Below, one piece after another: positions 21,957 to 53,194 of a stretch of DNA of 64,000 nucleotides. The notes beneath the pieces were generated by a model. It was given only the letters and a program-made list of their open reading frames with translations. It had not been told where the DNA came from and did not search any database. The stretch is from Sphaerochaeta associata. GTDB taxonomy: Bacteria; Spirochaetota; Spirochaetia; Sphaerochaetales; Sphaerochaetaceae. Numbering within the stretch: position 1 is the first letter of the stretch; each line of letters opens with the position of its first letter. Location: assembly GCF_022869165.1 (NCBI RefSeq), contig NZ_CP094929.1, positions 2,790,001 to 2,854,000 of the forward strand, read 5' to 3'. The position numbers and the translations under genes were made by a program.

Positions 21957-23180
21957 ATGAATACTCAAGAACAACCACTGATGCCCAGAAAAGAGTACTT
22001 GAAGCAACTGATTGCCTGGCGTGAGAAGCATCTTATCAAGGTAATCACCGGAGTCAGACGTTGCGGCAAATCGACATTATTCTCCCTCTATATCAAGTAC
22101 CTCAAACAACAAGGTGTGCGGGATAGACAGATTATATCGATCAACCTTGAGGACATCGAATTCGAACATCTTCTCGATTACCACTCACTGTATCGATACA
22201 TCAAGGAACTGTTGCAGAATGATTGTTTCACCTATGTTTTCATCGATGAAATCCAACAATGTAAGGGCTTTGAAAAGGCCGTCGATAGTCTCTTCATCAA
22301 GAACAACGTTGATCTGTATATTACAGGGTCGAATGCCTATATGCTCTCAGGCGAGTTGGCTACATTACTTTCCGGAAGATATGTAGAAATACAGATGCTT
22401 CCCCTCTCCTTCAAGGAGTATCTTGAGTTCTCCCATGCAAGTTTGGATAACCTCACTCCTTCATTCAATCGCTACTTGAAGCAGGGTTCGTTTCCCTATG
22501 TTCCAATGCTGGAGCAACAAGATTCTATTATCAGAACCTATATCGAGGGCATTTACACAACCATCCTGATCAAGGATGTAGCCCAACGCAAGGCCATCAC
22601 CGATGTTTCCCTCCTTGAACGCATCATCAAGTTCTTGGGAAGTAGCATAGGGAGTCCCATCTCTGCAAAAAAAATCTGTGACACTCTCATCTCCAGTGGC
22701 AGAAAAGTTTCAGTCAATACGATAGATATCTATCTTCAGGCATTGCTGGACAGTTACATTTTTTACAAAGTGGACCGGTATGACATCAAAGGAAAAAATT
22801 TTCTTAAAACTTTGAGCAAGTACTACATAGTCGACTTGGGACTACGAAACAACCTGCTTGCGAGTTCAGAATCGGATATCGGACATCAGATTGAAAATAT
22901 TGTATATCTGGAACTCATCCGGCGCGGATATCAGGTATCCATCGGCAAGCTGACGGACAAGGAAGTCGATTTTGTGGCAAAGTCCCAAGAGGGGCTCTCC
23001 TATTTTCAAGTATCGGCCTCGGTCCTCGATGAGAATACCCTCAAACGCGAACTTGCTCCGCTCCAAGCGATACGAGACAATCACCCAAAAACACTACTCA
23101 CCTTGGACGAAATCGGTGCGGGCAGCAACTACGAAGGCATCCAACAAAAGAACTTGTTGCAGTGGCTTGTCACGAGCTAG
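21957..23180 (+). CDS. AAA_14/DUF4143 ATP-binding protein
   Basis: The protein has 407 residues. Walker A GVRRCGKST is at residues 32-40 and the Walker B-like YVFIDEIQ at about 95-102, with sensor TGSNAYML. The C-terminal DUF4143 half contains the restriction-endonuclease-like GKLTDKEVDFVA and FQVSASV. These proteins are widespread, often in accessory regions, and their role is poorly defined. The start codon lies only 6 bases after a -10 box, so the mRNA is probably leaderless. Confidence 0.92.
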   Translation: MNTQEQPLMPRKEYLKQLIAWREKHLIKVITGVRRCGKSTLFSLYIKYLKQQGVRDRQIISINLEDIEFEHLLDYHSLYRYIKELLQNDCFTYVFIDEIQQCKGFEKAVDSLFIKNNVDLYITGSNAYMLSGELATLLSGRYVEIQMLPLSFKEYLEFSHASLDNLTPSFNRYLKQGSFPYVPMLEQQDSIIRTYIEGIYTTILIKDVAQRKAITDVSLLERIIKFLGSSIGSPISAKKICDTLISSGRKVSVNTIDIYLQALLDSYIFYKVDRYDIKGKNFLKTLSKYYIVDLGLRNNLLASSESDIGHQIENIVYLELIRRGYQVSIGKLTDKEVDFVAKSQEGLSYFQVSASVLDENTLKRELAPLQAIRDNHPKTLLTLDEIGAGSNYEGIQQKNLLQWLVTS

Positions 23181-50112: not shown

Positions 50113-51039
50113 ATGAAAATCGACCGGCTTGTAAGCATTATCATGGTGCTCCTTGACAAGAATCGTATTGGAGCGCAAGCACTGGCTCAGATGTTCGAGG
50201 TATCACAACGCACCATATACCGCGATGTTGAGACCATCAACATGGCGGGCATTCCCATACGGTCGACACCAGGGGTGGGCGGTGGATTTGAGATTATGGA
50301 GGAGTACAAGCTGGAGAAGAAAGTATTTTCCAGTTCCGACCTTTCGGCCATCCTGATGGGGCTTTCCAGCCTGTCCTCCATGGTACGGGGTGAAGAAGTG
50401 GTGCAGGCCCTTGCGAAGGTAAAAAGCTTCATCCCAGCTGATCAAGCAAAGGAAATTTCCCTAAAGGCCAATCAGATATACATCGATTTGAGCCCTTGGC
50501 TGGGCAACAGGAATGTACAACCATACTTGGAACTCGTGAAAACAGCGTTGGAGCGGAACAAACTGCTCGCCTTCGACTACGTAGACCGTCATGGAACAAG
50601 GACCACCCGGACAGCCGAGCCCTATCAACTCGTGTTGAAGAACAGTCATTGGTATTGGCAGGGATATTGCCATACACGAAAGGATTTTCGATTGTTCAGG
50701 CTATCCAGGACACTGAACCTGCACATGCTCGGGCAGTCGTTCATTCCCAAGGAATACCCTAAGCCGCAGTTTGAGTATCCTGACTTCTTGGCACCATCAT
50801 ACACAACCATCACCATTCGGATTCATACGTCGGTCATGGACAAGGTACTCGAATACTGCACCTATGACCACTTCCAGCCTGACGGACCGGAGCACTACAC
50901 CGTTGCTTTTCCCTTCATCGAGAATGACTATTACTACCAGATCCTGTTCAGTTTTGGTACAGAGTGTGAATGCTTGGAACCACTAGATATCCGCACGGAA
51001 ATGAAGCGTCGCATAGAGGCCTTGGCTTCCTTGTATTGA
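50113..51039 (+). CDS. WYL-domain (YafY-type) transcriptional regulator
   Basis: The protein has 308 residues. The N-terminal helix-turn-helix (GAQALAQMFEVSQRTIYRDVE) is followed by a WYL domain (about 145-225: LAFDYVDRHGTRTTRTAEPY, SHWYWQGYCHTRKDFRLFRL) and a C-terminal extension. WYL domains sense nucleotides or nucleic-acid ligands. The gene is divergent from the DJ-1 gene. The triple palindrome that follows it might also be its target. Confidence 0.92.
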   Translation: MKIDRLVSIIMVLLDKNRIGAQALAQMFEVSQRTIYRDVETINMAGIPIRSTPGVGGGFEIMEEYKLEKKVFSSSDLSAILMGLSSLSSMVRGEEVVQALAKVKSFIPADQAKEISLKANQIYIDLSPWLGNRNVQPYLELVKTALERNKLLAFDYVDRHGTRTTRTAEPYQLVLKNSHWYWQGYCHTRKDFRLFRLSRTLNLHMLGQSFIPKEYPKPQFEYPDFLAPSYTTITIRIHTSVMDKVLEYCTYDHFQPDGPEHYTVAFPFIENDYYYQILFSFGTECECLEPLDIRTEMKRRIEALASLY

Positions 51040-51044
51040 GATTC

Positions 51045-51125
51045 TGTTCCTGTAACAGGAACATATTTGTGTTTTCGTTCCTGTACTAGGAACGTTAATA
51101 CGATTTCGTTCTTGACTCAGGAACA
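51045..51125 (+). repeat. three 19-bp palindromes with exact 31-bp period
   Basis: Copies start at 51045, 51076 and 51107. Copy 1 has arms TGTTCCTG and CAGGAACA around TAA. Copy 2 has CGTTCCT and AGGAACG. Copy 3 has GTTCTTG against CAGGAAC, with one mismatch. The 31-bp spacing equals about three helical turns, so a regulator could bind them on one face of the DNA. Copy 3 overlaps the -35 box of the ATPase promoter. Confidence 0.9.
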
Positions 51126-51140
51126 TTTGGTTTCTATCAT
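51112..51140 (+). promoter_or_regulatory. leaderless promoter of the AAA ATPase gene
   Basis: TTGACT (51112-51117) and TATCAT (51135-51140) are 17 bases apart. The ATG at 51147 begins 6 bases after the -10 box and no ribosome-binding site is present, so transcription probably starts at the start codon. The third palindrome covers the -35 box. Confidence 0.7.
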
Positions 51141-51146
51141 ACGTAC

Positions 51147-52343
51147 ATGACTATCCACCGTATTGCAGAACTTGAAGTTGCCATGAAACGACGTATTGCC
51201 TCGCTTCCAGCCAGGTTCCGTCCATTTGTCAGACATCGGGAGACGCTCCCCAGAACTACTATGCTTACCGGTCCAAGAGGAGTCGGAAAAACAACATTTC
51301 TTCTCTACCACGCACAAAAATTCTTTGAGACCCATAGAGAGAGGCTGCTTTACCTATCTGCTGATAATCCTACGCTTGGAAGTGAAGGTCTCTATGAAAT
51401 AGTTACATCCATTTTTCTTGCGGGCTACGCAGGTGTAATTATCGATGAAGTCCATTTCGCAAAAGACTGGAGCATTCATCTAAAGGCTCTCTACGATGAT
51501 TTCCCTAACCATACATTGTGGATAAGCGATTCATCATCCCTCTGCCTACGAATGGGCAAAGGCGACCTATCCCGCCGTTTTGTTCATATCGATATGCCCC
51601 TTCTCTCATTTCGTGAGTTCATCTATCTTGAGACTGGTACTGAGCATCCCACGTACAACCCATTCAACCCAAGCGGACAGCTGCCCTTGCAACCTTCCCC
51701 GAACGTCCTCTCTGCCTTTATGACATACAGGAGCATAGGCACTCGACCCTTCTACAGTGAAGGAGATTTTCATGATCGAATGCTCTCTATTCTGGATAAA
51801 ACACTCTACAGTGATATTCCATTCTTCTTACCCAGCATCAGCGATGGCAATCTACGATTAATGAAAGCGATAACCGGTACTCTGGCCAATTCATCCATTC
51901 CAAGACTCCAGGTACGTTCGTTGTGTACTGATTGGTCGGTAGGAGCCGATAAGCTGTATCAACTTCTGAATGTAATGGAAGCAGTTGACCTACTCCGAAT
52001 CATTCGCAAGGAACACGACACCAAAGCAAAAACAGCCGGTGAAAAACTGTTTTTTTCCGATCCGGCATTCTATACGGTGCTAGGAGGTAATATCGACAAT
52101 GCAAGGGAGGCCATGACGGCTATGCTTTGCACCGCCGGAGGTTTTCTCGTAGAAGCTGTAAAAGATGAAACCACAGGCGATTTTGTGTTGTCCAAACCCT
52201 ATGAGGCTGCGAGCAACCATATAAAAATTGAAGTGGGAGGCTCCTCGAAAAGTCTGAAAAAGGCTGATTTTGTCATCAGGGACGATACCGATTATCCAGG
52301 AGACAGAACCATCCCTTTGTGGCTGCTCGGTATGATGTATTGA
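51147..52343 (+). CDS. AAA family ATPase with DUF4143-like C-terminus
   Basis: The protein has 398 residues. Walker A GPRGVGKT is at 42-49, Walker B VIIDEVHF at about 97-104. The C-terminal half is DUF4143-like, with a possible nuclease-fold strand IKIEVGGSSKSLKKADFVI. It is a second member of the class seen at 21957, but diverged. It lies downstream of three phased palindromes and a promoter without leader, so it is tightly regulated. The function is not established. Confidence 0.9.
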   Translation: MTIHRIAELEVAMKRRIASLPARFRPFVRHRETLPRTTMLTGPRGVGKTTFLLYHAQKFFETHRERLLYLSADNPTLGSEGLYEIVTSIFLAGYAGVIIDEVHFAKDWSIHLKALYDDFPNHTLWISDSSSLCLRMGKGDLSRRFVHIDMPLLSFREFIYLETGTEHPTYNPFNPSGQLPLQPSPNVLSAFMTYRSIGTRPFYSEGDFHDRMLSILDKTLYSDIPFFLPSISDGNLRLMKAITGTLANSSIPRLQVRSLCTDWSVGADKLYQLLNVMEAVDLLRIIRKEHDTKAKTAGEKLFFSDPAFYTVLGGNIDNAREAMTAMLCTAGGFLVEAVKDETTGDFVLSKPYEAASNHIKIEVGGSSKSLKKADFVIRDDTDYPGDRTIPLWLLGMMY

Positions 52344-52369: not shown

Positions 52370-53194
52370 TTATCCTATCCTATTCTGAGACTCCTCCAAA
52401 TCTTTGAATCTCCTATACAACGTCGCCTTTGACAGCTTGGTGATTGCAAGAGCTTCGTCTAGTGTGATTCGGCCTGCTTTCAGTTTCTGTCTCACCTCAT
52501 CCAGCAGCGGCAGCGATACATCGATGGGCTTTCTTCCCGTGTAGACACCCCGTTCCCCGGATTCCATTTGGCCTCTCTTCTGTTGCACTCTGCGCTTGGT
52601 TGCAAGAAACTCATATTCGATCAAGTATGCTTTGATAAGGGTGCTGCGCTCCTGCTCACAGAAGCGTACGCCATGGATGTCTATCGGCAGCCTCATCCCC
52701 AAGAGCTGGAGGACCGAGAGTGCATGCCACTGCATATTTTTGTTTGAAAAGCCGGTGAAGTTGTTGAAACCATCCTGCTCAACGATCAACTTGTCACCGG
52801 TATAGATGGTGTCGGTGTTGATCAACCACTGCAGGCGGTTCAGGTAGTCCAGATTCGTTCTCTCTAGCTCCTCCTTGAGATTCACGCGGTTCGGTGAAGG
52901 GGTCCTCTCGCTGATGAATGTAGGAATTACCCCTACTCGGTAGTAGCGCTCGCGCCTAAGGTCCAGGTCGAGGCCGGGTATCCCACCCCAATCAACAGGA
53001 GTCAAGCCATCCACTACATCGTAGCAGGGAGCAAAGATGTACTAAAACGATTCATCCTCGAACAGCTCGTAGGTGATTTTAGCGACCTTGAACAAGGTCG
53101 TTTTGGTGTATGCGAAACAAATCTCTCCAGAAAGGCTGTAGAGCCGCTTCACATCCGAGGATATTGGAGTGGTGATATCTGTATTTCTTTTCAT
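52370..53194 (-). pseudogene. HTH-containing protein gene interrupted by an in-frame UAG
   Basis: A frame starts at ATG 53194 behind GGAGGAACTCC and reads 275 codons to 52370, with one in-frame TAG at 53044-53042 (codon 51). The sequence on both sides looks continuous (YELFEDESF, stop, YIFAPCYDVVDG). The C-terminus carries a resolvase-like helix-turn-helix (AGRITLDEALAITKLSKATL). No recombinase catalytic domain is visible. It may be a recent nonsense mutant or a read-through gene. A GTG at 53014 could restart a 214-residue product. Confidence 0.7.

Follow-up and report, generated by a model that had tools for sequence, protein, structure and literature searches.

Related systems

PADLOC PDC-S01 is a putative single-gene phage defence candidate, an AAA_14 ATPase with a PD-(D/E)XK domain, and this composition is predicted for the protein considered here. 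In the accessible text of two papers, PDC-S01 ranks fourth among defences in prokaryotes by how common it is (PMC12988326) and first in frequency among the individual loci of rumen genomes (PMC13356809); the same portions of text do not mention operator arrays for it. The literature on the AAA_14/DUF4143/PDC-S01 family is thin, and the parts available of the few papers found contain no mention of such arrays. As stated in the available part of one study, the Thermus thermophilus AAA_14/DUF4143 gene TT_P0211 was 6.6-fold upregulated with a plasmid, which was unseen without Argonaute (PMC4406477).

The window analysed, i.e., the whole stretch of 64,000 nt from Sphaerochaeta associata (NZ_CP094929.1, positions 2,790,001-2,854,000, forward strand), encodes an ATPase with a palindromic array in front of its gene. 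Over residues 15-314, the fold predicted for this protein is most similar to the archaeal Walker-type ATPases SSO1545 (2fna, Z 15.0) and PABY2304 (2qen, Z 14.5), with STAND proteins and Orc2 next in order; the C-terminal nuclease fold of the window protein lies outside the aligned range. We know of no operator arrays for SSO1545 or PABY2304, and in STAND proteins, which have a similar structure, the winged helix does not necessarily bind DNA. Orc1/Cdc6 and DnaA-type initiators, which are AAA+ proteins like the window ATPase and appeared among the Foldseek and VIA matches, bind repeat arrays; Orc1/Cdc6 has a winged helix, and one such protein has been solved on origin DNA (2qby). Unlike these initiators, each protein of the window family has a private motif before its own gene and a terminal nuclease fold, and the array is no origin. 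The WYL proteins BrxR and CapW repress some defence operons. The window locus resembles those systems in having a putative dedicated operator ahead of a defence-like gene, with a WYL gene adjacent, but this adjacency is not conserved with the array.

Palindromic array and promoter

The features of the upstream region are as follows:
50113..51039, + strand, WYL-domain regulator gene, directly upstream of the array
51045..51063, no strand, palindrome 1, TGTTCCTGTAACAGGAACA; 17-bp core GTTCCTGTAACAGGAAC at 51046-51062
51076..51094, no strand, palindrome 2, CGTTCCTGTACTAGGAACG; 17-bp core GTTCCTGTACTAGGAAC at 51077-51093
51107..51125, no strand, palindrome 3, CGTTCTTGACTCAGGAACA; 17-bp core GTTCTTGACTCAGGAAC at 51108-51124; -35 box in its interior
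51112..51117, + strand, -35 box TTGACT, inside palindrome 3
51135..51140, + strand, -10 box TATCAT, after a 17-bp spacer and 6 nt before the ATG at 51147
51147..52343, + strand, AAA_14/PDC-S01-like ATPase gene, 398 aa

The pitch between the three cores is 31 and 31 bp, and their coordinates bear out the 19-bp inverted repeats at 51045, 51076 and 51107 in 31-bp phase that the preliminary description had reported. When all equal pitches between 19 and 80 bp were scanned in the window, the top triple palindrome was this array (23/27 pairs; the next independent one scored 19). When up to 3 mismatches were allowed, the three-site pattern matched once in its own genome (reversed control pattern: none). 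The preliminary description had proposed looking for GTTCCTN5AGGAAC-type sites in front of ATPase genes of this class; in the 3.55-Mb genome, palindromes 1 and 2 were the sole exact occurrences, and they do precede the ATPase gene. Relaxed sites elsewhere in the genome were not enriched (206 vs. 351 for the reversed control pattern). A regulon of scattered motif copies was rejected, the exact site being unique to the array and relaxed sites unenriched.

The promoter was as previously described, TTGACT and TATCAT separated by 17 bp and followed after 6 nt by the ATG at 51147, with no Shine-Dalgarno sequence ahead of it. The same layout was found in all 20 promoters examined from Spirochaetota, that of the window among them: a TTGAC-type -35 box within palindrome 3, a 17-bp spacer and a distance of 6-9 nt from the end of the -10 box to the ATG, without a Shine-Dalgarno sequence. 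In these promoters, site 3 hardly varies in its interior (TTGAC), unlike sites 1 and 2, whose interiors are variable. Such a site 3 is what would be expected of a repressor site doubling as a promoter, and the layout as a whole is that expected for a near-leaderless transcript. Met13 (51183) was considered as an alternative start; it is conserved in the Spirochaetota and Bacteroidota rows of the alignment, but not in the deep clade described below. Since Met13 is not conserved in this clade and the residues ahead of it align there as well, the ATG at 51147 was preferred.

Conservation of the array

Six genomes of the genus matched the three-site pattern with up to 2 mismatches, and none of these six matched the reversed control pattern. 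The array was kept upstream of ATPase orthologues with 80% and 79% identity (genomes G011 and G017, respectively) and upstream of a gene start running off the contig (G015). In G003 (locus L028, contig C12), the promoter and the three-site array are kept and the ATPase gene is cut to its last 81 residues. In G025, the array was kept in the same neighbourhood as in G011, and no ATPase match was found in that genome. There (L069, contig C67), the array is intact at 1501-1579, with an AbiEi-like gene upstream and a SulP-like gene downstream; a SulP-like gene also lies downstream of the ATPase in G011. To judge by this arrangement, the array without an ATPase resembles a scar left when the gene was lost.

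A scan of 84,980 species genomes yielded 33 orthologous loci, and half-site scoring detected arrays upstream of most orthologous loci. This scoring was used for the deep clade, where a period scan without motif weighting was noisy. Arrays of Spirochaetota and Bacteroidota have the form GTTC-N9-GAAC with a pitch of 31-32 bp; those of Aquificaceae, Hydrogenothermaceae, Thermodesulfobacteriaceae, Acetomicrobium and other records have the form GTTC-N7-GAAC with pitches of 32 and about 40 bp. Between orthologous loci, the upstream flanks and genes differ (the gene preceding the array elsewhere is antiporter-like or another), the spacers have diverged and the half-sites drift across phyla, whereas the array and its pitch are kept. 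At the level of sequence, these comparisons confirmed that the three palindromes are real and conserved across several bacterial phyla. Together with the 20 promoters, this conservation supports the dedicated multi-site operator and near-leaderless start claimed earlier. Loss of the palindromes or their spacing in close relatives keeping the gene, which the preliminary description had named as counting against its reading, was not seen, except that no clear array was found at L006/L042, a diverged relative of 59% identity. The L006 and L042 orthologue adjoins AbiEi-like and AbiEii-like genes. No relative was found in viral contigs.

The ATPase and its family

The domains of the ATPase are as follows:
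51255..51620, + strand, AAA_14 domain, residues 37-158, profile match
51891..52055, + strand, winged helix predicted at about residues 249-303 and proposed to read the palindromes; structure model, DNA contact putative
52059..52340, + strand, C-terminal PD-(D/E)XK-like domain, residues 305-398, structure model

Of the AAA/DUF4143 class named in the preliminary description, the AAA part held, with an AAA_14 (PF13173) match of 78.9 bits against a gathering cut-off of 27; the DUF4143 part did not, as the window protein had no Pfam match to DUF4143 (PF13635) up to E 1. DUF4143 was matched weakly by six of 30 aligned family members (best E 0.0012). The PADLOC PDC-S01 profile PDLC04787 matched residues 36-350 with E 4.3e-14, and four paralogues tested matched the PDC-S01 models far more strongly (E 1e-160 to 1e-64). 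By these profile matches, the window ATPase is a divergent member of the AAA_14/PDC-S01 family. The structure model (mean pLDDT 89.7) comprises a predicted AAA+ core, followed by a winged helix and a C-terminal domain with a nuclease fold, so that the fusion of an ATPase to a PD-(D/E)XK domain that characterizes PDC-S01 is represented by AAA_14 and the predicted C-terminal fold. In the PDB, the model of the C-terminal domain was matched best by restriction-endonuclease-like folds (EcoRV, Hjc and I-Ssp6803I), with Foldseek probabilities of about 0.9-0.98 but E values of 0.035 or worse, which speaks for the fold only. The usual ExK lysine is replaced in this domain of the window protein (EVGG).

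Repeat arrays across the family

The genome contains about 16 AAA_14 genes, most of which, when inspected, had a differing upstream repeat: TTTACGATATATCGTAA in three copies, GGGTATAACCC in three, ATTCGATTATAATCGAAT in two, a 23-bp direct repeat in nine, and others. The self-similarity of 160 nt upstream was scored against dinucleotide shuffles, with z over 3 taken as significant. Significant repeats or palindromes were present in 90/119 family genes and in 15/135 control genes, 7 AAA_14-like controls having been removed (Fisher p about 8e-27, i.e., about 1e-26, with related genes treated as independent). The family genes comprised 60/80 positives from Spirochaetota and 30/39 from other phyla; their starts were predicted and the members are not independent of one another. 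The 29/119 genes lacking a significant repeat were scored with assumed start codons. In a separate set outside Spirochaetota, 11/20 genes had a significant repeat, and the misses include some window-family orthologues, owing to the assumed start.

By upstream self-similarity, most genes of the AAA_14/PDC-S01 family carry a private repeat array of fixed spacing. The earlier single-gene view was right about the array and missed the family-wide nature of the trait. Motif similarity between arrays rises with protein identity, and motifs differ widely within one pitch class. Copy number ranges from 2 to 9 across the family, and therefore no fixed stoichiometry is claimed; with such numbers, the idea of a hexamer (three palindromes as six half-sites) was not specifically supported. 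A Muribaculaceae MAG (G120, the genome of L048) has 48 AAA_14 matches in 2.8 Mb, many with their own arrays.

Pitch classes

Among the 119 family members, repeat-pitch peaks were observed at 32 bp (24 genes), 33 bp (18), 23/46/69 bp (9/11/8) and 40 bp (7); the same distances occurred in 0-2 control genes. A direct-repeat pitch class was callable for 65/119 members. On the tree of these 65 proteins, the classes required 6 changes vs. 19.6 with shuffled labels (0/200). As called from the upstream repeats, the pitch takes quantised values (23, 32-33 or ~40 bp) that track the protein tree. The 23-bp clade has iteron-like direct-repeat arrays of 3-9 copies, most of them at some distance ahead of the start. 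The recognition helix was considered as the putative most variable part of the protein within pitch clades; its variability was raised in the 23-bp clade but was not the highest, which is no more than suggestive. Nine annotated plasmid records were taken from a tblastn search with a 40-bp-class paralogue. The best direct repeat lay at 39-40 bp in four of them, with individual z values below 3; in a fifth, archaeal record a 40-bp direct repeat ranked second (z below 3). Of the other four records, one had a strong inverted repeat instead. The plasmid records L257, L258 and L259 (Selenomonas, Moraxella and Bacteroides relatives) had no significant repeat with the annotated start.

Proposed regulation and alternatives

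The preliminary description had left the regulator as either the upstream WYL protein or the ATPase itself. The ATPase is the best-supported candidate, by exclusion and by the link between clade and pitch across the family, which is drawn from sequence comparison. It is the sole constant among the orthologous array loci, and a search for another recurrent neighbour family across 39 orthologous loci found none. The ATPase is the likely reader because one host regulator could not plausibly read all the differing motifs. The pitch stays while the motif changes, which points to an oligomer of the ATPase as the reader. We consider it probable that the array serves the ATPase gene as its private operator, with the oligomer binding its own palindromes and repressing the promoter. 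The shape of the oligomer would set the distance between bound units, 31-32 bp or three helical turns in the window clade. Occupation of palindrome 3 would block the -35 box and so repress the near-leaderless promoter, and sites 1 and 2 would add cooperativity. Autorepression would likely proceed through the winged helix; we infer that repression of the gene is tight, and a defence role may lie behind it. Since each paralogue has its own motif, the copies in one genome would not cross-regulate. Against a private operator count the array persisting without an ATPase in G025, the 29/119 genes with no significant repeat, the L006/L042 relative and, as regards the winged helix as reader, the precedent of the STAND proteins.

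Alternatively, the array could have an architectural role or be a target instead of an operator: it would then be a platform for assembly, the boundary of a cassette or a nuclease target of the ATPase, and its overlap with the promoter would be secondary. The ability of the array to outlive the gene, the predicted nuclease fold of the C-terminus and the iteron-like position of the 23-bp repeats agree with this explanation. We nevertheless regard it as unlikely, given the fusion of site 3 to the -35 box in 20/20 window-clade promoters; a second, cassette-framing array on the far side of the gene was not noticed on non-systematic inspection either. Any operator can be read in trans, and a host factor distinct from both the ATPase and the WYL protein might bind the array; such a regulator would need to read the unrelated motifs of ~16 paralogues in one genome, and both the persistence of the array across phyla and a pitch following the ATPase tree make it improbable.

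Repression by the WYL protein would suit its adjacency to the array and the role of BrxR and CapW in some defence operons. Among the 39 orthologous loci, no WYL-like ORF lay in the 1 kb preceding the ATPase, and WYL-like ORFs occurred in the stretch fetched at three of them, all weak (E 1e-7 to 1e-3). Adjacency to the array is not conserved at these loci, and the array also persists behind an antiporter-like gene or others. The WYL protein is therefore unsupported as the regulator and a very improbable one. Short palindromes are common, and chance, or shared ancestry without function, might account for them; this is contradicted already by the conservation, as half-sites and pitch stayed while spacers and flanks diverged. 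The array is also the best in the window, and control genes mostly lack such repeats, which leaves this explanation a negligible chance.

If the array is a private operator read by the ATPase, a broader possibility may be offered tentatively: the family would be self-addressed, each ATPase-nuclease assembling on a private, clade-pitched array, and the assembly would serve as repressor and as a store of inactive enzyme released or activated by invading DNA. Given how frequent PDC-S01 is according to the accessible text of PMC12988326 and PMC13356809, private operators of fixed pitch would matter as a first handle on a very common, poorly understood ATPase-nuclease family. The arrays tell which DNA each ATPase probably binds, their pitch would predict subunit spacing in the oligomer, and they offer a simple reporter assay. 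They also suggest that dozens of paralogues can share one genome thanks to the lack of cross-talk between their operators.

Other genes in the window

The window contains a second AAA_14/PDC-S01 gene (21957-23180; E 4.6e-160 to PDLC04787) that is preceded by a strong inverted repeat. This gene, too, may be leaderless, since TATACT lies six bases ahead of its ATG. At 52373-53014 on the minus strand, a protein of unknown family is encoded, with a weak C-terminal DNA-invertase match (phrog_125, E 0.006).
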